Assembly (NCBI RefSeq): GCF_016863395.1
Contig: NZ_BOOU01000067.1
Span: 1-64,000, forward strand
Direction: 5' to 3'
Length of the DNA stretch: 64,000 bases
Origin: Sphaerisporangium rufum
GTDB taxonomy: Bacteria > Actinomycetota > Actinomycetes > Streptosporangiales > Streptosporangiaceae
Below, one piece after another: positions 8,270 to 41,959 of the stretch. Under the pieces are notes generated by a model. The model was not told where the DNA came from. It did no database searches and saw only the letters and a list, made by a program, of their open reading frames with translations. A program made the translations under genes and the position numbers. The stretch's first letter is position 1, and the number at the start of each line of letters is the position of its first letter.

Positions 8270-9988
8270 ATGTCCATGAAGACCCCACGCGCGTTCACCC
8301 GCGTAGCCGCCGGGTTCGCCGCGTCCATAGTCGTCGCCGGTTGCTCCTCGTCCGCGGGTGCACCGGGACAGGCGGCCGGAGCGTCGTCCGGAGCCGGGGG
8401 CTCGGCGGGAGCCTCGAAGCCCCTGGTGGTCTACACCGGCGCGACCGGCGACATCCAGCCCATCTTCAACCCCTACCTGCCGGGTTCCCTCGGCGGCGGG
8501 GGCATGATCTTCGAGTCGTTGTTCTTCTACAACATCGTCCGCAACGAGGCGCCCCGGCCCCGGCTCGGCGAGAGCTTCTCCTGGAACGACGACGGCACGG
8601 AGCTGTCGATCACGCTGCGCAGCGGCGTCAATTGGTCCGACGGCCGGCCGTTCACCGCCAAGGACGTCGTGTTCACCCTGAACATGATCGCGAAGTACAA
8701 GGCCCTGAACAACACGGGCTACCGGGGCAAGGCGACCGCCACCGACGACACCCACGTAGTGATCAAGTTCGATGAGCCGTCCTTCCTGGACGGCCCGCAG
8801 ATACTCGGCCGGATCTGGATCGTGCCCGAGCACAAGTGGAAGGACTTCCCGGACCCCACCAAGGAGCAGCTCCGAGAGGCCGTCGGCACCGGGCCCTACC
8901 TGGTCGACGATCTCAAGCCCCAGGCGTTCACGTTGAAGGCGAACCCCGGCTACCGGGACGGCGAACCCGCCGTGAAGAAGATCCGTTTCCCCTCGCTGTC
9001 GGGCAACCAGTCCGGCGCCACCGCCCTCAAGGCGGGCCAGATCGACTGGCAGACCGGACCGGTGCCGGACATCGCGAACGTGGAACAGAGCTACCCCGGG
9101 TACAAGCTGATCATCACCCCGCTGAACCAGATGGTGATGGACACCTGCGCCAACGCCGACCTGGGATGCAAGGGCCCGCAGACCGACCCCGCCGTCCGCC
9201 AGGCGATGTACTACGCCGTCAACCGGACCCAGTTGAACGCGCTGGCCTTCGAGAACACCAGCGCCGAGATCTCGCCGAGCATGGCGCTGGTGCAGCGGGA
9301 CCAGGCGGTGATGTCCGGCCGGCTGCAGAACAAGGTCGCGCCGATGCAGCCGGATCCGGCCAAGGCGCAGCAGATCCTCGAAAGTGCGGGCTACGCGAAG
9401 GGCGCCGACGGGATCTACGCCAAGGACGGCAAGCCCGTCAAGCTGACGCTCAAGACGGTCGCCGGATGGACCGACTACATCACCGCGGCCGACACGCTGA
9501 GCCAGCAGCTGGCGAAGTCCGGTATCAAGGTCACCGCGCAACAGCTGTCGTACAACGAATGGGCCGGTGCGCGACAGCGCGGCGACTTCCAACTGATGCT
9601 CGACTCGCTGTTCCAGGGCCCGGCCGCCGACCCGTTCTACGTCTACAGCTACTTCTACAGCACCGACAGCACCGACAAGGTCGGCGGGGCGGCCGGCAAC
9701 AATGTCAGCCGCTTCTCCGATCCTGAGGTGGACAAGGCCCTCGCCGAACTGAAGAAGATCGACATATCGGACACCGCTCCGCGGCAACCGTACTTCGACA
9801 CGATCCAGACGCGCATCGAGCAGGCGATGCCCTACATCCCGCTGCTCACCCAGGGGACGATCAACATCTACAACGCCGGGAAGTTCACCGGCTGGCCGGC
9901 CAAGGAGGACCTGTACGCCTTCCCGGCGGCCTGGCAGGCGCCGGACGCCTCGGAGATCTACCTCCGGCTCAAGCCCACCGGCAAGTGA
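8270..9988 (+). CDS. ABC importer solute-binding lipoprotein (family 5)
   Basis: Extracytoplasmic binding protein of an oligopeptide/oligosaccharide-type ABC importer, 572 residues, family SBP_bac_5 (DppA/OppA fold). It has a lipoprotein signal with lipobox VVAGC (Cys25) and a Ser/Gly/Ala linker, then the mature domain. Family motifs include LRSGVNWSDGRPFTAKDV and the DPAVRQAMYYAVN segment. Family 5 proteins include cello- and manno-oligosaccharide binders as well as peptide binders. The neighbouring mannosidase, galactosidase and GH5 genes favour a manno- or gluco-oligosaccharide ligand (inference). The ATG at 8270 follows GAGAGGA at 8253-8259. It is first gene of the five-gene operon that reaches at least 13602. 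Confidence 0.88.
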   Translation: MSMKTPRAFTRVAAGFAASIVVAGCSSSAGAPGQAAGASSGAGGSAGASKPLVVYTGATGDIQPIFNPYLPGSLGGGGMIFESLFFYNIVRNEAPRPRLGESFSWNDDGTELSITLRSGVNWSDGRPFTAKDVVFTLNMIAKYKALNNTGYRGKATATDDTHVVIKFDEPSFLDGPQILGRIWIVPEHKWKDFPDPTKEQLREAVGTGPYLVDDLKPQAFTLKANPGYRDGEPAVKKIRFPSLSGNQSGATALKAGQIDWQTGPVPDIANVEQSYPGYKLIITPLNQMVMDTCANADLGCKGPQTDPAVRQAMYYAVNRTQLNALAFENTSAEISPSMALVQRDQAVMSGRLQNKVAPMQPDPAKAQQILESAGYAKGADGIYAKDGKPVKLTLKTVAGWTDYITAADTLSQQLAKSGIKVTAQQLSYNEWAGARQRGDFQLMLDSLFQGPAADPFYVYSYFYSTDSTDKVGGAAGNNVSRFSDPEVDKALAELKKIDISDTAPRQPYFDTIQTRIEQAMPYIPLLTQGTINIYNAGKFTGWPAKEDLYAFPAAWQAPDASEIYLRLKPTGK

Positions 9989-9992
9989 TCCG

Positions 9993-10988
9993 ATGCGGTA
10001 CTACCTCCGCAAGTTCGGTTTCTACCTGGCCGCCCTGTGGGCGGCGGTCACGCTGAACTTCTTCATCCCCCGGATGATGCCCGGCGACCCGGTGAGCATC
10101 CTGATGGCGAAGCTGCAGCAGCGGGGCGGCTCGGTGAACCCCGAGGCCCGCAGAGCCTACGAACTGCTGCTCGGCACCGACACGGGTGAGCCGCTGGCCA
10201 GACAGTATCTGTCCTATCTCGGCAACATGCTGCACGGCGACTTCGGGATCTCGGTCAGCGCCTACCCGGTGCCCGTCTCGGAGGTCATCGCCACCTCCCT
10301 GCCCTGGACGGTCGTGCTGGTGGGCATCGCGACGGTGCTGTCGGTCCTGGTCGGCACCGGGCTCGGGATGCTGGTGGGATGGCGGCGGGGCACCTGGCTC
10401 GACGCGCTGGTGCCCGCCACCACGGTGCTGGCGGCGGTGCCGTACTTCTGGCTGGCGCTCGTCCTCGTCGCCGTGCTCGGCTCCGCGCTGGGCTGGTTCC
10501 CGCTCATCGGCGGCTACGACGTCGACTTCACCCCCGGGTGGAACCTCGACTTCCTCGGCTCGGCCGTCCATCACGGCGTCCTGCCCGCGCTGACGATCGT
10601 GATCTCGTCGGTGGGCGGCTGGCTGCTGGGAATGCGCAACATGATGGTGTCCACGCTGTCCGAGGACTACGTGCTCACCGCCACCGCGAAAGGGCTGCCG
10701 AACAGGCGCGTGATGATCTGGTACGCCGCCCGCAACGCGGCGCTGCCGTCGATCGCCGGGTTCGCCATCTCCCTCGGATTCGTGGTGGCCGGTTCCATCG
10801 TCACCGAGCAGGTCTTCTCCTATCCCGGCATCGGCTCGAAGCTGCTGGAGGCCGTGCAGAACAACGACTACGCGCTCATGCAGGGCATCTTCCTGGTCAC
10901 GACCGTGGCGGTGCTCGGAGCCAACCTGGTGGTCGACCTGCTCTACAGCGTCATCGACCCACGGACCCGCGCGGGAGCGAACGCATGA
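9993..10988 (+). CDS. ABC importer permease (DppB/OppB-type)
   Basis: Inner-membrane permease of the family-5 ABC importer, 331 residues. The N-terminus (MRYYLRKFGFYL, then FFIPRMMPGDPV) is typical of OppB/DppB proteins. About six transmembrane segments follow, with the EAA coupling loop around DYVLTATAKGLPNRRV and the terminal motif YSVIDPRTR. It begins 4 bases after the binding-protein stop and overlaps the next gene by ATGA, so coupled translation is expected. It would pair with the DppC-like half of the following fusion protein to form the translocation pore. Confidence 0.92.
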   Translation: MRYYLRKFGFYLAALWAAVTLNFFIPRMMPGDPVSILMAKLQQRGGSVNPEARRAYELLLGTDTGEPLARQYLSYLGNMLHGDFGISVSAYPVPVSEVIATSLPWTVVLVGIATVLSVLVGTGLGMLVGWRRGTWLDALVPATTVLAAVPYFWLALVLVAVLGSALGWFPLIGGYDVDFTPGWNLDFLGSAVHHGVLPALTIVISSVGGWLLGMRNMMVSTLSEDYVLTATAKGLPNRRVMIWYAARNAALPSIAGFAISLGFVVAGSIVTEQVFSYPGIGSKLLEAVQNNDYALMQGIFLVTTVAVLGANLVVDLLYSVIDPRTRAGANA

Positions 10989-32757: not shown

Positions 32758-33486
32758 CTAGGAGGCGGGCGGGCCCGCTCCCCTATGCGGGCCGGCGGGG
32801 TCCTGGCGCCGCCGGCCGCGGCGGCTGCCGACCCACCCCGCGGCCGCTATCGCGACCAGGAAGGCGGTCGCCCACAGCCAGCCGGGAATACCGGAAGATC
32901 CGGCAGCCGGATCGCTTCCTGCCGCCGGTGCGTCCGTCGCCGACGGGGCGTCGGTGGTCGTGGTCGTGGCCGTGACCGTGGCCGGCGGAGAAGCGGTCGG
33001 AGACGATGTCGCCGGCGGCGAGCCGGGTGACGGGGGCGTGCTCGAGACGGTGACGGTGAAAGGGATCTCCCCTTCGATGGGGTGACCGTCGGAGGACACC
33101 ACCCGCCAGCCAATCACGTATCGGCCCGGAGACAGTGGTCCGGTGACATCGACGAGCACCTTGGCCCCGTCCAGGCGCGGCTTGCCGATCGCGACCGCTC
33201 CCGCCGGGCCGCGCAGCACCATGGCCGGGAAGCGGACGCGGGCGGTGTACTCCAACTCGACGCGATCGAGACCGGAGATCTCGGCGTTCCGCTCGGGAGA
33301 GCTGCGCTTGAGCTGGTCGTGCGCGGCGGCGGGGAAGGCCGTCAGACCCGACAACAGCCCCCAGCACGCCAACATCGCCAGCACGGTGGCCATGCGACAC
33401 CACCGCACCGACCGGAGCGGCCGGGCGGTTCGCCGGCGAACGCGGGCGGGGGTGATGGCCGGATGGCGGATGATCGGGAAACTCAT
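32758..33486 (-). CDS. CopC-domain copper-binding membrane-anchored protein
   Basis: Exported copper-resistance CopC-like protein, 242 residues. An N-terminal signal region with hydrophobic segment (about 34-54) ends AAA-HDQLKRSSP, placing the family's N-terminal copper-ligand His at the mature N-terminus. A beta-sandwich follows to about residue 155 (YVIGWRVVSSDGHPIEGE, with the second His ligand in DGH). Then come a Thr/Pro/Ala linker and a C-terminal transmembrane helix (IPGWLWATAFLVAIAAAGWV) with a basic cytoplasmic tail. Its ATG at 33486 overlaps the Dyp peroxidase stop (ATGA). Confidence 0.88.
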   Translation of the reverse strand: MSFPIIRHPAITPARVRRRTARPLRSVRWCRMATVLAMLACWGLLSGLTAFPAAAHDQLKRSSPERNAEISGLDRVELEYTARVRFPAMVLRGPAGAVAIGKPRLDGAKVLVDVTGPLSPGRYVIGWRVVSSDGHPIEGEIPFTVTVSSTPPSPGSPPATSSPTASPPATVTATTTTTDAPSATDAPAAGSDPAAGSSGIPGWLWATAFLVAIAAAGWVGSRRGRRRQDPAGPHRGAGPPAS

Positions 33487-34694
33487 GTCAGCAGGCCCTC
33501 GCCGATCCAGCCACCGGAGTCGCAACCCGGCGGGATGGCGAACACGGCCGAGCCGACCGGCGTGGTCCACTCGTTCAGCAGGTCGACCTCGGCCAGCCGC
33601 CTCTGGACCGGCAAGAACTGGCGGGTGATGTCGGCCTGGTAGGAGGCGAAGACCAGCCCGCTGTCGGCGTGTCCGCCTGCGGACAGACCCTCGTCGTAGT
33701 TGTAGACCCGGCGGTAGATCCGCAGGGCGGGGTCGGCGGTGTGCGCCCGGCGGATGTGGGCGTATTCGGAGATGGCCGGCAGCCCTACCGCGTTCAGCTT
33801 GGTGAAATCGGGTTCGTCGTGCTCGCGGGTACCCGTGAGCGGAGCACCGTTGTCCATACGGCGGCCGATGGTGAACTCCTTTGCGGTCCGATCGGCGGCG
33901 TCCCAGGTCTCCATTTCGGCCCGGATGCGCCGTAGTACCAGGGTGGTGCCGCCATGCAACCAGTCCGGTCCCTCACGCACCCACACCGCGCGGTCGAATT
34001 CGGGGGTGCCAGGCACCGGGTTGACGGTGCCGTCCAGCTGGCCCATGACGTTGCGCTGGGTCTGCCCGGCCTCCTGGATCCCGACGCCGCGCCGGAACCC
34101 GCGCTGCGTCCAGCGCACCCGCGTGAAGGCGCGAACGTCCTTGACGATCATGCGTAGAGCGTGTGTGACGGTCATCGGGTCGTCAGCGCAGATCTGCACC
34201 AACAGGTCACCGCCGCTCCAGCGCTTGTCCAGCTTGTCGATGGAGAAGCCGGGCAGGGGGGCGATCTGCCTCGGGCGAAGGCCGACCGTGCCGGCCGCCT
34301 CGAACAGGCCGGGGCCGAAGCCGAAGGTGACGGTCAACCGGGCGGGCAGCACCGCCAGTTCCGGCTCGGTATCCGCCAGCGCCGGCCTTCCCTCGGCCAG
34401 GCGGCGGGCGTCATCGGTCAACAGCCGCATCATGCGTCCAAGACCCTCCCGGTCGACTCCGGTGCGCAGATCCAGGCCGACGAAGACGGCATGCGCCTGC
34501 GGGCTGGTGGCGATTCCGGCCTGGTGCGATCCGTGGAACGGCTCGACCGCGGTTCCGGACCGCGCGGCCGGAGCCTGCGCGGTGGCGGAAGCCGGGGTGA
34601 AGGCGTGCGCGGTCAGGGCGCCTGCCGCAGCGGCGCCGGAGGTCAGCAGGCCCCGCCGGGTGAGCGGGAGCCCGCCGGTTCGACGGTCCGCCAT
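33483..34694 (-). CDS. Tat-exported Dyp-type heme peroxidase (DtpA/EfeB-like)
   Basis: Dye-decolourising peroxidase, 403 residues. A twin-arginine signal (LTRRGLLTSGAA) precedes the two ferredoxin-like halves of the fold. The distal GxxDG motif is present as MGQLDGTVNP, with the heme-ligand His in SEYAHIRRAH and the distal Arg region DITRQFLPVQ. The C-terminal GSAVFAIPPGC fits the EfeB/DtpA branch. Family members use H2O2 to oxidise dyes or, in EfeB-like enzymes, protoporphyrinogen/heme. In Streptomyces lividans, DtpA is linked with the copper chaperone ECuC and Sco in maturation of the copper oxidase GlxA. The same CopC-Dyp-PCuAC neighbourhood here suggests a similar extracellular copper/peroxidase role. 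Start and stop overlap both neighbours. Confidence 0.92.
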   Translation of the reverse strand: MADRRTGGLPLTRRGLLTSGAAAAGALTAHAFTPASATAQAPAARSGTAVEPFHGSHQAGIATSPQAHAVFVGLDLRTGVDREGLGRMMRLLTDDARRLAEGRPALADTEPELAVLPARLTVTFGFGPGLFEAAGTVGLRPRQIAPLPGFSIDKLDKRWSGGDLLVQICADDPMTVTHALRMIVKDVRAFTRVRWTQRGFRRGVGIQEAGQTQRNVMGQLDGTVNPVPGTPEFDRAVWVREGPDWLHGGTTLVLRRIRAEMETWDAADRTAKEFTIGRRMDNGAPLTGTREHDEPDFTKLNAVGLPAISEYAHIRRAHTADPALRIYRRVYNYDEGLSAGGHADSGLVFASYQADITRQFLPVQRRLAEVDLLNEWTTPVGSAVFAIPPGCDSGGWIGEGLLT

Positions 34695-35308
34695 CAGCCC
34701 TTGTCCCCGCCGTCCTCGCCGCCCATGTCCATGCCGCCCTCGCCGGAGCCGGGCTGGTAATCCTCCTTGCCGCCGGCGAACTCCTTGCCGATCGCGGTGA
34801 ACCGCAGGGTGCCGCCATCGGCCAGGGTCAGGGTGAAGGGGATCTCCGCGCCCGGCTCGACCTTGTCGGCGACGCCCATCAGCATGATGTGATCGCCGCC
34901 GGGCGTCAGCTGGTGGGTACCGCGGGCGGGGATCACGAAGCCGCCCTCCTTGGGGCGCATCACCATCTTGCCGTCGGACTCCACGACCTCGTGTAGTTCG
35001 ATCTTCGGTGACAGCGGGGAAGCACCAGAGACCACCCGCACCTCGGTGTCGGTGTTGTTGACCAGGGTGCCGAAGGCGGCGGTCATGCCCTTATCCGTGG
35101 CCTTGACCCAGGGGTCGATGACCGACAGGACAGATGTAGGAGACGCGGCCGGCGCAGCGGTGGCCGGGGCGCCCGAAGCCGGGGCGGCCGTAGGGGCGGC
35201 GGAGGCGGTGCCGCCGGCCGCGCACCCGCTCACGAGCAGGGCGGCCATGACCAGAGCCGAAGGCGCCAGAGCGGGGAGAACGCGGGAACGCGGGAAGCGA
35301 GAATGCAT
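34694..35308 (-). CDS. PCuAC-type copper chaperone lipoprotein
   Basis: Extracytoplasmic copper(I) chaperone of the PCuAC (DUF461, ECuC-like) family, 204 residues. The lipobox is LVSGC and an Ala/Pro/Ser linker follows. The copper motif is present: LHEVVESDGKMVM then, about 22 residues later, DHIMLMG, i.e. H-x10-M-x22-H-x-M. The C-terminus is a Gly/Asp tail with MDMGG that may add Met ligands. ATG at 35308 is chosen because it gives a normal lipoprotein signal; GGAAGG lies rather far (about 14 bases) upstream. Its stop overlaps the Dyp start (TGATG). It likely delivers copper to a secreted or membrane cuproenzyme. Confidence 0.9.
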   Translation of the reverse strand: MHSRFPRSRVLPALAPSALVMAALLVSGCAAGGTASAAPTAAPASGAPATAAPAASPTSVLSVIDPWVKATDKGMTAAFGTLVNNTDTEVRVVSGASPLSPKIELHEVVESDGKMVMRPKEGGFVIPARGTHQLTPGGDHIMLMGVADKVEPGAEIPFTLTLADGGTLRFTAIGKEFAGGKEDYQPGSGEGGMDMGGEDGGDKG

Positions 35309-35471
35309 GACGTGACAAGGCCTTCCAGGGGATGCCTCGGCAGCAGAGGGTTGAGGGCGTGCCGAAGGCGGATTCACGCAGGTTCGATCAGCGGCCGATG
35401 GACGAGATGGCCGCCGGTTTCCGGGCCGATGGCGCCGGGAATGAAGACGTGCTCCGGCGTCCGCGCGGCGG

Positions 35472-36035
35472 TCAGCCGGAGAAGAAGGGAACCTGCGCGT
35501 ACGGCGGCCCGCGCCGCGGCGCGGCGGTGGCCAGCAGCACCGAGCGCAACCGGTCCGGTTCGGGCGCCGCCACGGCTACGACCGGCTTGTGGGCCGGTTG
35601 CAGGTATGCGAGCAGAACGAGGCGCGAACGCACCGCCAGCCGGCGCAGCATCCCCCACAGCGCGGCCTCGCCCCGGGCCAGCCACAGTGCGCTGAGCCCG
35701 GCCACCCAGGCGTGCGCGACGAGCATGCCCGTACCTGGCGCCTGACCTGACATGTGCATGTGACCTGTGACGCTGTGGACCATGGGAGCGTGATCGAAGG
35801 AGAAGAGCACGTGCAGGACCACCTGCACCGCCGCCAGCAACGGGAAGATCACCGTCATCGGGCGCTCGCGCCCTGAGGCCGCCGTCGCGGCGCCGAAGGC
35901 CAGCAGCAGGGCGCCTGCCGCGGCCGGCGCCGAGACCGAACCGCCGCCCAGGCGATGCGCCGCCACGCTCAGCCCCAGGCACACCACGGCGAACACCGTG
36001 GCGCGGGCAAGACGGAGCGGCAGAGCGGCGGTCAT
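35472..36035 (-). CDS. Small polytopic membrane protein, paralogue B of copper locus
   Basis: A 187-residue protein with about four transmembrane segments and a His/Met-rich loop (HAPMVHSVTGHMHMSG), the best visible metal-binding candidate in this gene. It is homologous to the protein at 32024-32608 (see shared features there). It is first gene of the copper-locus strand, 163 bases before the PCuAC start. The ATG at 36035 lacks a strong ribosome-binding site. Only 10 bases separate this start from the end of the jetD remnant, so the junction between the defence operon and this locus is very tight. Confidence 0.7.
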   Translation of the reverse strand: MTAALPLRLARATVFAVVCLGLSVAAHRLGGGSVSAPAAAGALLLAFGAATAASGRERPMTVIFPLLAAVQVVLHVLFSFDHAPMVHSVTGHMHMSGQAPGTGMLVAHAWVAGLSALWLARGEAALWGMLRRLAVRSRLVLLAYLQPAHKPVVAVAAPEPDRLRSVLLATAAPRRGPPYAQVPFFSG

Positions 36036-36045
36036 TATGCGACCA

Positions 36046-36258
36046 TCATGGCATCTCATCCCCTTGCCCCGGAACCCGGTACCCACCCGGCACTTGGGGC
36101 GGCGTACCCGAGACGCTCGACCGTCGACACGCCGGCGCGGAGTGGGACGGGGAACACGACCGGGTCGCCGCGGTCCACGCACCCGGCTTCCCCCATTTCT
36201 GGTCGATCTTGTGGCGGACGGCCGTGACGGCGTCCTCCGGGGTGACGAGTGGGCTCAT
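36046..36258 (-). pseudogene. jetD: Truncated, frameshifted jetD (Wadjet nuclease) remnant
   Basis: The ATG at 36258 overlaps the jetC stop (ATGA) exactly where jetD belongs. It opens with [23 protein letters not shown], shortened here as TPEDAVTAVRHKIDQKW, which fits the N-terminus of JetD (DUF3322). After about 28 codons the similarity moves to another frame (DPVVFPVPLRAG then VERLGYAA) and stops at 36056-36058. The original frame stops at 36046. An intact JetD is about 380-400 residues with a C-terminal Toprim (DUF2220) nuclease domain; all of that is missing. The next intact gene begins 10 bases later, so the rest of jetD was probably deleted. Confidence 0.78.
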
Positions 36259-39200
36259 GCGTCCGGAACGCCGACCAGGGGCTTGGCCCAGGATCGGCCC
36301 TCGGAGTTCTTGAAGATCAGGTACTCCGCGTCCACATGCGGCTCGATCGCGCTGTGCTTGTCGTTGGGGGCGCCGATGACGAGCTGGAAACCGAGGCCGC
36401 GCCACGCGCCGATGGCCCGGCCGGTGAAGTGCGCGTCCGCCTTGATCAGCGCCTCGTCGAGGAAGACGGGGGCGTAGCGGGGGCGTTCGGCACCCGCGTC
36501 GCCGAGCTGGTACCGCAGTGCGGCCCCGACGATGAAGGCGACCAGCTCCTGCGACTCGCCGCCGGACTTCTCGCCGATGTGGTCGTACACCGCGACGTGC
36601 CCACCGTCGAGATCGCGTTTCTCGGCACTGATCCGGACGTGGTTGCGCACGTCGACGAGGTCGGCGAAGTCGGGCGCGGTGCGTCGGATATGGTCGATCA
36701 CCTTGGTCATCCGGTGATAGGCGCGTTCCCGCTCGTCGTCCGTCGCCGCCTGGTCGATGATGGCGCGTACTTCGCGCAGCTCCTTGCGGAACCGGGCGCG
36801 CACCGCGGAGTGGCTCTCCTGCGGGTCGATGCGCAGCCGGTGTTCGTCGTCGGCGAATGGCAGCTCGGCGAGGATGCGGTTGACCGGGTCGATCCGGTCC
36901 CGGATCTCCCGGACGGCGGCGGCGAGCTCGCTGTCCAGGCCGGTCAGGTCGTTGCCGGACAGCTTGAGCAGGCTGTCCCGCCATTCGATCTCCAGCTCGT
37001 GCAGCCCGCTGGTCTCCAGGTCGGTGAGCAGGCGATCGTAGTCGCGGTACGAGTCGTCCGGGTCGGTGCCGAGGTTCGGGTTCGGCCACCGCTCGACGAA
37101 CGTCGAGAACGCGTCGAGCAGCGCCTTCTTCGACCTGCCGATCGTCTCCGCCGCGGCCCGCCGGTCGGCGTGGAGCCGCTCGGCGGCCCGCTTCACCGCC
37201 GCGTCGAACTCCGCGAGCTCGCCCGCCGCGGTGCCGTCCGGGTCGCCGCCGAACAGCGCCTCCAGGTAGGCCCGGTGTTCCCGAGTGACCTCGGTTCCGG
37301 TCTTCACGGCCGTGTCGAGCGCCTGCTGGGCGCGGTCCACCTCGTCGACGGTCGACTCCCAGGACGTGCGGAGCATCTCCACGTCGTCCTTCTGCCGGCC
37401 GACGCGTTCGGTCAGTTCCCTGACCCGCTCCTTCAGTTCGTCCAGTCGGCCCTGCAGCCGGTCGATCCTCGGGTTGCCCGCGCGGACCTCCTCGACGACG
37501 CGGGTCCAGCGCCCCAGTTCCTCCTTGACGGACTCGACGTCCAGCCGGTCCCACGACAACTCGGTCAGGGTCTGGTAGGTCGTGCGTCCGGCCTCGAACG
37601 AATTGAGGTCCTCCTCCGCCGCCGCCACCCGGCCGACGGCATCGTCGAGGCGTTCCCGCGCCCGGCCGATCCGGCGGTCGAGGTCGGCGAGCGACCTGCT
37701 GTTGGTGAAACCGAGCAGGTTGGCGCGGCCGTGGCCGCCGTGCGCGCCGCGGCCGCCCTCGGAGGTCTGGCCGGTGATCGTGAGCGCCTTGGGGTGCTGC
37801 GCCAGCAGCCTCGGGGTCTCGACGCAGACGAAGTCGAACCGCCGGGCGAGCTCGCTCTTGAGCCAGGGGGTGAACGGCGACGGCCGGTAGTCGAGCCGGC
37901 CGGGGAGCGTCCTGTCGTCCAGCCCGACCTCGTCCCGCAGGCCGGTACGCACGCCCTCGAAGTGGATGCGCCGGGCGACCGGCACCGCGTTGATCGCCTC
38001 GCGGAACGCGTCCAGCCGGCCGATGTCGATCAGCATCCGGGTGGCGAATCCGCCGAGCGCCAGGTTGAACGCCTCGCGCCACGGTTCGAACTCCGTCCGG
38101 ACCTCGATCAGCTCGGCGACGAACGGCACGTCGTCCGGGCCGAGCCCGGCGGCCTCGGCCAGCGCCGCGCGAGCCGCGTGCAACTCGGCCGGGATGTTGC
38201 CCCGCCGGTTCTTGGCCGCCTTGTGCTCGGCGAGCAACCCGGCGAGCTCGCGGCCGGCGTCCTTCTTCTCCGCCATCGCGTCGGCGAACCGCTCCTGGGC
38301 GGCCCGCCTGGCGCCGGCGTCGGCCAGCGACCGGCGCGCCGTCTCGACCAGTGCGGCGAAGTCATCCGCCGTCGACACGCCGGCGCCGATGGTGGCGAGC
38401 GCCCGGTCCAGCCGATCCCGGGCGTGTTCGACATCGGCCAATCGTTGCTCCACGCCGCGGATCTCCCGGAGTGCGTTGTCCAGACGATCACCACCGGACG
38501 TGCGAAGCGTGTCGGCCACCCCATCGCGCTGTGTTTCGGTCGCTTTGACCAGGGCGGCGGTCTCGGTCAGTTCCTCCCTGGCCCGGCGGTGCCGCTCGGC
38601 CAGGTCCGTCTCGGCGGAGCGCAGCAGGTCGAGCCGGCGTTCGTGACGCCACAACGCGGCGGGGGACGACGTGTCGATGAAGGATCCGATCTCGTCGATC
38701 AGGCGCGACCGGTCCGCCGCCTCGTCGATGGCGCGCCGGTGTTCGCGGATCGGGGTCAGCGCCTTCACCTGCCGGCGGGCGGTGATCATCCTGGTCCGGG
38801 TGCCGGACAGCTCGTCGAACTGCTGTACCACCGCGTCCGCCGTGGCCAGGGTGGACGGCTCCTCGAGGACCATCGTCTTGTAGAGCGCGTCGACGGTGGT
38901 GATCTGCTGGCCGGCCTGGATCCGGCCCAGCAGCGCGACCGCCTTGTGCCCGTCGCCCGCGGCGCCGATGCCGAGCGTGGTGTGGAGGCGCGCGGTGAAA
39001 TCACGGTCGGTCTCGCACCAGTTCAAGCCGGTCGCCAGGACCTCGGCACGGGCGAGCTTCCTGTTCGCCGGCCCTTCCAGGGTGCGCAGGTGGTACGAGT
39101 GGTCGCAGGTGGCGCGCACGGCCACGACCTCGTCGAGGCTGCGGGCGGATGACGGGACGTACCAGGCCCGGAGCGCGGTGAACTCGGCGCCGGTGCGGTC

Positions 39201-39596
39201 GGCCCAGGTCATCGCGATGGCGGACCAGGTGTCGCGGCCGTCGCCACGTAGCACCCGCGACTTCGTCTCGCCGTCGCTCCGGGACTCGTCGAGCTTGCCG
39301 CGCGCGTAGGAGAGGATGTTGCGCTGGTCCTTGCCACGGGGCCTGCCGACCACTCCGCCGTTGGACGCCCCGTTGAAGGGGGTCGTGTGCGGCATGAGCA
39401 ACGCGATGTAGGAGTCCATCAGCGTCGACTTGCCGGAACCGGAACCTCCGCTGAGCAGGGTGGCGCCGGGTGCGAACCGCAGGTGGTGATACCCGTCGTA
39501 GCCGCCCCAGTTGACCAGTTGCAGGTCCCGCGCCACCCACTGCCGTCCCCGGGACGCCGCCGGGATCAACCCGAACAGCGTGTCGATCATGCTCAC
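36255..39596 (-). CDS. jetC: JetC: SMC/MukB-like ATPase of a Wadjet system
   Basis: Condensin-type ATPase, 1113 residues. An N-terminal head carries Walker [11 protein letters not shown] (about 49-58) after [14 protein letters not shown]. Long coiled-coil arms (about 250-560 and 700-960) flank a central hinge-like globular part with [14 protein letters not shown]. The C-terminal head has signature [12 protein letters not shown] (about 1011) and Walker [15 protein letters not shown] (about 1045). These match MukB/JetC of the Wadjet (Jet/Mks/Ept) family, which extrudes DNA loops and detects small circular DNA. GTG at 39596 is preferred (GAGG seven bases before, GTGA overlap with jetB); ATG at 39590 is the alternative. 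No frameshift or lost motif is seen, so the motor appears functional although jetD is gone. Confidence 0.92.
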
Positions 39597-40264
39597 GCCG
39601 TGGCCTCGTTCCGTCCGCGCAACCACTCTTCCATCTCGGCGAGCTTCGCGGTGCTCAGCACGACCTCCACCAGCGGGGTGATCCGGTACCGGCCCGCGGA
39701 GTCCTCGGTGAGCAGACCTTCGGTGACCAGCCGTTGCACCGCGTTGCGGACCTCCTGCTGGCCGCGGGCGAGGTTGTGGTCGTTCGGGTCGAAGTAGGTC
39801 AGCACGCTCTGCTCCAGCTCCTCGATGTCCACCCGGGCGGACGCCTCGCCCGTGCCGCGTTCCCGCTGGAAGACGGTCCGCAGGTGCACCAGCACCAAGG
39901 TCTCGGCCCGGTTGTAGGGGTCGTCCTTGAGGAGGATCGGCACGTCCAGCTCCACCGAGCGAACCTGCTGCTTGTAGGCGACGCCCCGGTCGTGGTCGAC
40001 CACGAGCCGGACGAACAGGTCGTGCATCCGCGATTCGATGATCTGCTGGTTCTCCAGCAACGTGCGCCACTGCGCGGGGTTCTTCTCCGCGAGCAGGAAC
40101 TTGCGCCGCAACAGCTGGACCAGCACCCGCCGCACCTCGGCGTCCAGGGTGCCCGCGTCGCCGGCGAACAACTCGGCCGGATCGTCCTCCATCGAGATCG
40201 GGTCGATGAAGCCGGCCGCCGTGCCCGCCGACCAGCCGTCGCCGGCGCCGCCGGGCTCACTCAT
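39593..40264 (-). CDS. jetB: JetB: MukE-like kite subunit (DUF4194)
   Basis: Small winged-helix 'kite' subunit, 223 residues, matching DUF4194. Helical core [14 protein letters not shown], then [30 protein letters not shown] shortened here to its diagnostic [15 protein letters not shown]. The C-terminal wing includes [22 protein letters not shown]. It bridges the JetC heads and JetA. ATG at 40264 follows AGGAG by eight bases and overlaps the jetA stop by eight bases, so the operon is tightly coupled. Confidence 0.9.
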
Positions 40265-41804
40265 CCCCATCACTCCTGTCCGCGCTCGCGGGGTCCGCCG
40301 GGTTCGCCAGGTCCGCCGGGTTGGCCGGGTTGGCCGGGTTGGCCGCCACCACACCGCCGAGGGCGAACCGTCGCCGGGTCCGGTCGGGCCGGACCGTGTC
40401 GACCACCGCGACCTCGGCCGTCTCGGTCATTCCGGCGTCATGGGCGATCTCCAGCAGGCCGAGCAGGTCGACCGGCCGCCGGATGTCCTCGGCCGCCGCG
40501 CGGAACGCGGCCGTCACGTCCACGCTGCCCGCGGCGCCCGCGTACGCCGCCAGGTGCGCGCGCAGCTCGGCGTACCGGGGACCGCCCCATGCCCGGGTGT
40601 CCGCCGCCGGGACGTCCTCGGTCTCGTCCCATTCTCGCAGCGGCGCGGGCGGCTGCGGGGGCCGCAGGTCGCTCATCCGCTGCCGCAGGTGTCCGACGTC
40701 GGCCACCGGCAGGCGGCGGAGCGGCTCGACGGCCTCGCCGCGGCGCGAGCCGGGAACCCACTTGTGCAGACCGGACATCACATCCCGCAGGAGTTCGTCC
40801 ACCTGGCGATCTCGCATCGGATCGTGGTTGCGGACCTGGGTGGTGATCACATGGGATGCCTGCCGCTGCGCGGCCAGCACCTCCTTGACGCCCTGCTCGA
40901 TCCGGCGCGAGATCTCGGTGAGCTCCCGCCGCTGCTGCTCGGGTAGCAGCTCGGTGAACCGGTGCCGCAGCACCGTGCGCAGCTGGTTCCACAGGTCGTC
41001 GATCTGCGCCGGGTCACCGATCAGGCGCAACGCCCCCGCGAACGCCCGGCCTTCCGGTGTCGCGTCGAGGATCTGCCGGCCCCGGGCCAGGTACTCGCGG
41101 AGCACCTCACCGGTCGGCCGCACGTCGTGCCGCAACTCCGCGACGACGTCGCGCTGGATGGCCTTGATCGACTCGGCCACCCGGGCGAAGTCCGCGGGCA
41201 GCTCCCGCACCAGGTGCAGCACGTTCTCGGCCGCCTCGAGCAACTGCTCGTCCTCGACGGTCTCGACGGCGCCCCCCTGTTCGAGCCGGGTGAGCTCCGT
41301 CTGACGATGCCGGATCTCCTCGTGCAGGCGCAGTACCCGGGCCATCGCGTCCGGATCGGCGTCCTGCGCGAGTCGCTCGATCGCGTCCAGCAGCGTCCGG
41401 ACCCGGGACTGCGACACCCTGGTCCGCGCTCCGCCGACCCGTCCGGCGACCTCGAGCGCGCCGACGCCGTAGGCGGACAGCCGGTACACCTCGACATCGT
41501 CGTCAGAGACCTGCCGCACCAGCCACCCGGCCTGCACCCACTGCCGGCACAGGTCCCGCGCGTTGCCGGTGGGCAGCGGCCGGCCGCCCTCGTCGCCATA
41601 GCCCGCGGCCCGCAACTGGTCGAGGGCGTCGTTGATCTCCGCGTGCGAGTCGGCCACCGCCACCCTCGGCCGCTCGGCGGTGAAGACCATCGCCAGCACC
41701 GTCACCACGAACGGCGCGTGCGTCTGGTGGAGCAGGGCGAGCATCGGATTCTGGAACGCCCGGAGCGCGCCCTGGTAAGCGCCTTCTACCCCTCGTGTAC
41801 CCAT
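40257..41804 (-). CDS. jetA: JetA: MukF-like kleisin (DUF3375)
   Basis: Kleisin-like subunit, 515 residues, DUF3375 type. The N-terminal winged helix has [20 protein letters not shown], followed by a long helical middle ([40 protein letters not shown]) and a C-terminal winged-helix part ending in FALGGVV. The last 30 residues are an odd low-complexity tail of Asn-Pro-Ala/Asp repeats from a GGCCAACCC-like tandem repeat (plus strand about 40290-40345). The start at 41804 lacks a clear ribosome-binding site. It is first gene of the jetABC(D) operon; a divergent membrane-protein gene begins 155 bases away. Confidence 0.88.
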
Positions 41805-41959
41805 CGCCAGATAGCGTACGGCGGAGGTACGACACCGCCGGCTTACCCCGCCGTGGCCGCTGCTCCGCCGGCGGGTCCCACTCCTCGGACATCGGTCTCG
41901 ACAAACGATCTGTGACTGCCTATTTTCGTGAGCGGACTGCAGGCGCGAGAGGAGCGGCG

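Follow-up and report, generated by a model that had tools for sequence, protein, structure and literature searches.

Loss of the nuclease gene jetD from a type I Wadjet operon of Sphaerisporangium rufum, with purifying selection on JetABC

Introduction

What becomes of a Wadjet system when the gene for its nuclease is lost? The question is posed by a stretch of 64,000 nucleotides from Sphaerisporangium rufum (contig NZ_BOOU01000067.1, positions 1 to 64,000; hereafter the window), in which jetA, jetB and jetC are followed by a stub of jetD. A section of a review describes JetABC as a structural maintenance of chromosomes (SMC) dimer of dimers that is thought to sense circular DNA through loop extrusion, with JetD cutting once extrusion is complete (PMC10586767). 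According to a passage of the same review, the Pseudomonas aeruginosa MksBEF complex probably arose through loss of JetD (PMC10586767), and the present locus extends that published proposal. How SMC complexes of defence and condensins of the chromosome interconvert becomes testable with close pairs of operons with and without jetD.

A preliminary description of the window had recognised a Wadjet operon that lost jetD and had offered three outcomes: the system is dead, JetABC has been kept for another task, or jetD is supplied from elsewhere. The identification holds, with matches to JetA1, JetB1 and JetC1 and about 157 bp of alignable jetD stub, and among the outcomes we favour the second. The same loss appears to recur across Actinomycetia. 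Loss of jetD together with purifying selection on JetABC is well supported, and we consider it rather probable that JetABC here is a nuclease-free, MksBEF-like SMC loop extruder kept by selection, probably acting on the chromosome.

Results

The operon is confirmed as a type I Wadjet with JetA1, JetB1 and JetC1, minus jetD. All three frames are open, with overlaps of 8 bp between jetA and jetB and 4 bp between jetB and jetC. The Pfam scores of JetA and JetB (Table 1) lie above the cut-offs of 28.6 bits for DUF3375 and 32.7 bits for DUF4194, and the ATPase ends of JetC are matched by Pfam SbcC_Walker_B (77 bits) and AAA_29 (71 bits). JetC also carries complete Walker A (GGSGSGKS), signature (KSGGESQ) and Walker B (YAPVFLDE) motifs. 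JetB scores 24.8 bits with Pfam MksE (PF21980), below the cut-off of 27, and DUF4194 fits it far better; no NCBIfam model exceeded its cut-off on JetA, JetB or JetC. These results bear out the claim of three intact genes in the usual order with coupled starts and complete ATPase motifs, and the family searches that had been proposed for it returned DUF3375, DUF4194 and the SMC-type ATPase ends.

At the other end of the operon, jetD opens with a start codon that overlaps the stop of jetC (36258-36255). From there the sequence can be aligned to intact jetD genes of relatives for about 157 bp behind jetC, ending near 36098, with DNA identities of 81% to L033 and 80% to L035. Beyond about 36098 no jetD homology was found, and the next gene begins at 36035; the intact jetD of the congener Sphaerisporangium sp. 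TRM90804 has 410 codons. The remnant contains one -1 frameshift and two in-frame gaps, with jetD-like sequence running on in two frames. Of the frameshifted remnant of roughly 70 codons that had been described, the frameshifted 5' stub thus stands, while the last part of the 69-codon open frame, which ends at 36046, is no longer jetD.

Could a second JetD be encoded elsewhere in the host? Its draft genome (7.8 Mb, 173 contigs, 99.28% complete) gave no JetD_C match at E<=0.001 in a whole-genome search that covered neither DUF3322 nor the type II nuclease family DUF2399; with the E limit lifted, the only match scored 11 bits (E 0.86). The same search returned a match in the Corynebacterium glutamicum genome used as a control. 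Likewise, the JetD protein of the congener found no match in the whole host genome, although it recovered the congener itself. Of the JetD expected of a type I Wadjet, operon and genome thus yielded the stub only, and a supply of jetD from elsewhere is disfavoured.

Within the genus, DUF3375 occurs in 3 of 11 genomes. TRM90804 has a full jetABCD, its jetD lying at 8881-10113 of locus L013 and scoring 248 bits with PADLOC JetD1. The other congener, G009, assembled as one contig, carries jetABC and a jetD stub that is shorter than that of the window, ending 92 rather than 157 bp behind jetC. The two stub-bearing operons are sisters on the JetABC tree (support 96*), and their stubs share no lesion, the frameshift of the window being absent from G009; two separate losses and one unseen older lesion both fit.

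To compare constraint on the stub with that on intact genes, we counted its differences from a consensus of four close jetDs by codon position. The stub differs 6:7:2 times at positions 1:2:3, that is, 13 times on the first two positions and twice on the third. By the same measure, three intact jetDs gave 2:3:13 (L037), 3:3:7 (L039) and 7:7:14 (L038), pooled as 25 against 34, and the stub departs from this pooled pattern (Fisher p 0.003). The result supports relaxed constraint on the stub, though it is not proof.

The genes in front of the stub behave otherwise. In a three-taxon codon model over 1829 codons (window, G009 and TRM90804), the ratio of nonsynonymous to synonymous substitution rates (omega) was 0.101 for the window, 0.063 for G009 and 0.117 for TRM90804, and fixing omega at 1 cost 99 log-likelihood units for the window and 130 for G009. 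A fit that included L033 and L035 gave the window 0.110, with an upper bound of about 0.14. Seven jetD-less terminal branches had values of 0.043-0.110 (upper bounds about 0.06-0.14), none significantly different from its jetD-bearing comparator (largest 2dlnL 3.59), which was the sister in five cases and, for G009 and the window, the near relative L033. A given loss may fall on the tested branch or above it, and part of the branch may therefore predate the loss. The proposed comparison of relatives with and without jetD therefore returned purifying selection on JetABC without JetD.

Pairwise estimates agree. Pairs in which both operons lack jetD gave omega of 0.037-0.080 (7/7) and 0.025-0.073 (12/12, one of these without jetC), and the pairs from inside older jetD-less clades, 4 of the first set and all 12 of the second, gave 0.025-0.073 (16/16); jetD-bearing pairs gave 0.052-0.102 (9/9), and we place little weight on the lower values of the older jetD-less clades, since divergence is unmatched and synonymous divergence (dS) often exceeds 1. 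On the window branch, JetABC has 0.023-0.026 nonsynonymous substitutions per site (dN). Of about 107 first and second positions in the stub, 13 differ; less 3-6 for background, this amounts to about 0.07-0.09 per site, with a wide error. Had jetABC been unconstrained over the same time, its dN would be expected to be higher than observed. A dead system is accordingly disfavoured, with omega of 0.10-0.11 on the window branch (upper bound about 0.14) next to a stub that is apparently less constrained by codon position.

A scan with JetC yielded 48 actinomycete loci of 48-89% identity. jetD stands directly behind jetC (at least 399 of 410 query residues) in 28 of these and does not in the other 20, among which L060 retains a C-terminal piece and L056 short pieces, and L069 has only 705 bp of contig behind jetC. 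Broken jetA and jetC frames were seen in jetD-less L076 (5733-11350), and a frame change near the jetC end in jetD-bearing L067 (8010-11350). Together with G009 and the host, the jetD-less loci represent 22 genomes, in 20 of which a whole-genome search found no JetD_C at E<=0.001; the exceptions are Flavimobilis (L079), with the domain elsewhere, and Tessaracoccus, with a broken piece. A JetD protein query found no match in 18 of the 22, and its four matches were the G009 stub, the L060 remnant, the Tessaracoccus piece and the Flavimobilis copy.

Twelve recent cases were each compared with one or two jetD-bearing relatives. All twelve have a whole jetC, and homology to jetD breaks off at varying points from 7 bp before to 157 bp behind the jetC end, the exact point depending on the relative chosen. 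In L043 and L062 the jetC frame extends by a few codons to a new stop. In L060, L062 and L063 homology picks up again near the jetD end, and jetD was therefore deleted in place. The jetD-less and jetD-bearing pair L062/L066 shares both flanks, and L063/L064 share the downstream flank. We also considered whether another nuclease replaces JetD behind jetC, and rejected this as a general account: no gene common to the 20 jetD-less loci was seen, as judged by eye on heuristic gene calls. The same-place loci L060/L063 and L069/L071 do share genes behind jetC.

We then sampled the class more broadly with 394 genomes. DUF3375 was matched in 68 (65 above the cut-off) and JetD_C in 39. Of 66 near-full DUF3375 loci, 27 have a JetD_C match no more than 10 kb away on their contig, and the other 39 have none in that range; no JetD_C was found in the genomes of 32 of these 39. 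Searched by tblastn with two JetD queries, 0 of 38 loci without nearby JetD_C (the 39th being the window) and 22 of 22 JetD_C-bearing loci (from the 27) showed jetD, one of the latter, L122, having supplied a query. Of the loci concerned, L103 lies on a contig that ends inside jetC, so that its jetD state cannot be judged, L083 has no recognisable jetC, and L117 has a short one. By a hand tally, 3 of 31 JetD_C matches above 100 bits have no DUF3375 on their contig (G420, G148 and G208), possibly as nuclease orphans or through contig breaks.

On a JetA+JetB+JetC tree of the window, G009 and all named loci but L076 and L051 (46 of 48, giving 48 rows), jetD must change state 10 times. On a tree of 106 rows it must do so at least 15 times, and still must when L103, L117, L079 and L069 are removed; if only losses are allowed, 23 jetD-less clades are counted (22 without L103), the larger ones holding 11, 6, 6, 4, 4 and 4 loci. 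These are quick trees under a simple model, in which long branches are flagged and the deep joins are unsure. jetD is present in 15 of 15 rows of the canonical clade and in 33 of 91 rows of the clade that holds the window, shares that do not reflect a random sample, as nearly all jetD-less loci were fetched against 22 of 27 with JetD, and the jetD-less L083, with its high-scoring JetA, is unplaced.

Among the 33 loci with jetD in the clade that holds the window, JetD distances correlate with JetABC distances at r = 0.98, a value reached in 0 of 1000 permutations. Because JetD tracks JetABC in this way, most absences of jetD are best read as losses, with regain possible in places. A late gain of jetD was rejected as the main account: JetD follows the JetABC distances, and jetD survives as a stub or end piece in, for example, the window, G009, L056, L060 and L063. 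That jetD loss recurs across Actinomycetia thus appears well supported, with the reservations weighed below.

Discussion

How might a Wadjet complex without its nuclease serve the cell? JetC dimers held by JetA and JetB would retain DNA binding and ATP-driven loop extrusion, and a fully extruded circle would stay uncut in the absence of the Toprim nuclease JetD. On this reading selection keeps the complex, most likely for the benefit of loop extrusion by itself, and its role would be that of an accessory condensin on the chromosome beside Smc-ScpAB, as reported for P. aeruginosa MksBEF. Expression of the complex, its loop extrusion and its chromosomal substrate are our inferences. ScpA is present in the host genome, which presumably therefore has Smc-ScpAB.

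Compared with Wadjet type I (JetABCD; MksBEFG in C. glutamicum), the operon has the same JetA1, JetB1 and JetC1 families, gene order and overlapping starts, and the jetD of its congener is JetD1. It differs in having a stub of about 160 bp in place of the nuclease, which makes the cleavage of circles, the defining activity, impossible by the known route. A passage of PMC12287153 lists EptABCD of Mycobacterium smegmatis as a homologous system. With P. aeruginosa MksBEF the operon shares a kleisin, a KITE subunit and an SMC protein without a nuclease, and it has what marks a system of that type, a three-gene operon of this make-up kept by selection. Unlike MksBEF, its loss is recent enough for a jetD stub to persist and for close kin still to bear jetD; the likeness is one of composition. 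M. smegmatis offers a further parallel in MSMEG_0370, a second MukB-like SMC protein beside Smc and EptC, and a triple SMC knock-out there still condenses DNA, according to the part of PMC6135046 that treats it. Our guess is that MSMEG_0370 belongs to the jetD-less clade f6.

Several other explanations have to be weighed. The absence of jetD would mean little if it arose from an assembly or sequencing error, for which the draft state of the genome, in 173 contigs, offers some room. This is hardly credible: the one-contig congener has a jetD stub of its own, and the remnant combines several small lesions with scattered substitutions rather than showing a single break. Supply in trans of JetD or of another nuclease has more to recommend it, since the Flavimobilis genome has JetD_C elsewhere, and 7 of the 39 jetD-less loci of the class sample share their genome with a JetD_C match in another place, which in six of these seven lies beside a second DUF3375 locus. 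We nevertheless regard it as very unlikely for the window, given the empty host search (with DUF3322 and DUF2399 outside it), the lack of JetD_C in 20 of the 22 jetD-less genomes and in those of most class-wide loci, and the lack of a common replacement gene behind jetC.

A dying system, in which the loss of jetD is recent and jetABC persists only because decay has not caught up with it, deserves more attention. It would account for a remnant still readable at 80-81% identity and for the single tips that make up 12 of the 23 jetD-less clades, as expected of short-lived jetD-less operons; jetC is also broken in jetD-less L076 and short in L117, and a jetD-bearing locus, L067, has a frame change near the jetC end. 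Against this stand the larger jetD-less clades of up to 11 loci, with omega of 0.025-0.073 in the tested pairs, and the low dN of the window branch although its stub has already gathered 13 differences in about 107 positions, and we think such decay unlikely. The main functional rival is plasmid control without a nuclease, in which JetABC targets small circles and disturbs their replication, segregation or expression by extrusion or entrapment. The sensor part of Wadjet is JetABC itself, and the review notes that eukaryotic Smc5/6 restricts circular DNA by silencing (PMC10586767). It also reports, however, that Bacillus subtilis requires the full set of four subunits to act against plasmid transformation (PMC10586767), and a passage of PMC10123090 reports that deletion of mksG acts like deletion of mksB in C. 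glutamicum; we give this possibility a small share of our belief and prefer a nuclease-free extruder on the chromosome.

Some observations weigh against a retained chromosomal extruder that arose through recurrent loss. The N-terminal motif region of JetB is retained in jetD-less loci and differs between clades, which would be unexplained if this region docks JetD. A search based on JetC favours loci with an intact jetC and may under-report truncated ones. The 7 loci, out of 39 without jetD, whose genomes carry JetD_C in another place, mentioned above, count here as well. As for the codon-position pattern, the stub offers only about 160 bases, and the intact jetD of TRM90804, at 4:4:4 (8 and 4), does not differ significantly from it (p 0.36); the TRM90804 counts, like those of L033, L034 and L036, come from a stricter consensus, which undercounts. 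Finally, the JetD tree places L066 (95*) and L064 (93) outside the other Actinomadura JetDs, whereas the JetABC tree nests both within them, a conflict that fast change, replacement of jetD or its regain could produce.

Taken across the class, we see about an even chance that JetD is a disposable module in Actinomycetia, given up on roughly 15 to 23 occasions in descent from an ancestral, largely co-inherited JetABCD, while JetABC persisted each time as a nuclease-free loop extruder with a selected function. Plasmid immunity would then be a recurrent source of new condensins, and the window would capture one conversion soon after the event. Searches of an open-access library turned up no report of recurrent JetD loss in actinomycetes, and the phrase 'loss of JetD' came up only in a passage of PMC10586767. 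There is also a practical consequence. Matches to JetA, JetB and JetC that are counted as Wadjet defence may overcount anti-plasmid systems, because in the class sample JetD_C went unmatched within 10 kb of 39 among the 66 near-full DUF3375 loci.

Gene content and further observations

Table 1 Coordinates of the jet operon and the gene that follows it in the window
Feature	Position	Strand	Description
jetA (kleisin, DUF3375)	40257-41804	minus	515 codons/aa, intact; Pfam 373 bits, PADLOC JetA1 703 bits
jetB (KITE subunit, DUF4194)	39593-40264	minus	223 codons/aa, intact; Pfam 138 bits, PADLOC JetB1 359 bits
jetC (MukB-like SMC ATPase)	36255-39596	minus	1113 codons/aa, GTG start, intact; PADLOC JetC1 1669 bits
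jetD remnant	36098-36258	minus	start codon and about 157 bp behind jetC; rest of gene absent
First gene after remnant	35374-36035	minus	220 codons; predicted product unrelated to jetD, by eye a membrane protein

The gene that follows the remnant had no Pfam match up to E 1, no NCBIfam match and no match in G002 and G009, two genomes of the same genus. Behind the operon, at 32758-35377, the open reading frame list, read by eye, points to a copper-related set (CopC-like, Dyp-type peroxidase and PCuAC-like). A promoter scan upstream of jetA gave a single match, on the strand of the divergent gene.

In comparisons of 36098-41835 with L012 and L013, homology reaches no further than about 30 bp upstream of jetA at one end and the region of the jetD break at the other, and the surroundings differ in the three genomes. 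Homology that is limited to the operon amid different surroundings suggests that the operon moved, or that heavy rearrangement took place, among the three Sphaerisporangium genomes. For the genes that flank it, the other 10 genomes of the genus hold only distant relatives, and the comparison showed no empty site.

Within jetA, an in-frame insertion of about 15 codons near the gene end (40293-40337) forms a Pro/Ala/Asn-rich repeat that is missing in two congeners. In TRM90804 (L013, 8840-8900), jetC stops three codons early, and its overlap with the jetD start is gone. In one case only, Pseudosporangium ferrugineum (L056, 12335-19366), a type II Wadjet with JetA2, JetB2 and JetC2 lies behind the jetD-less type I operon.

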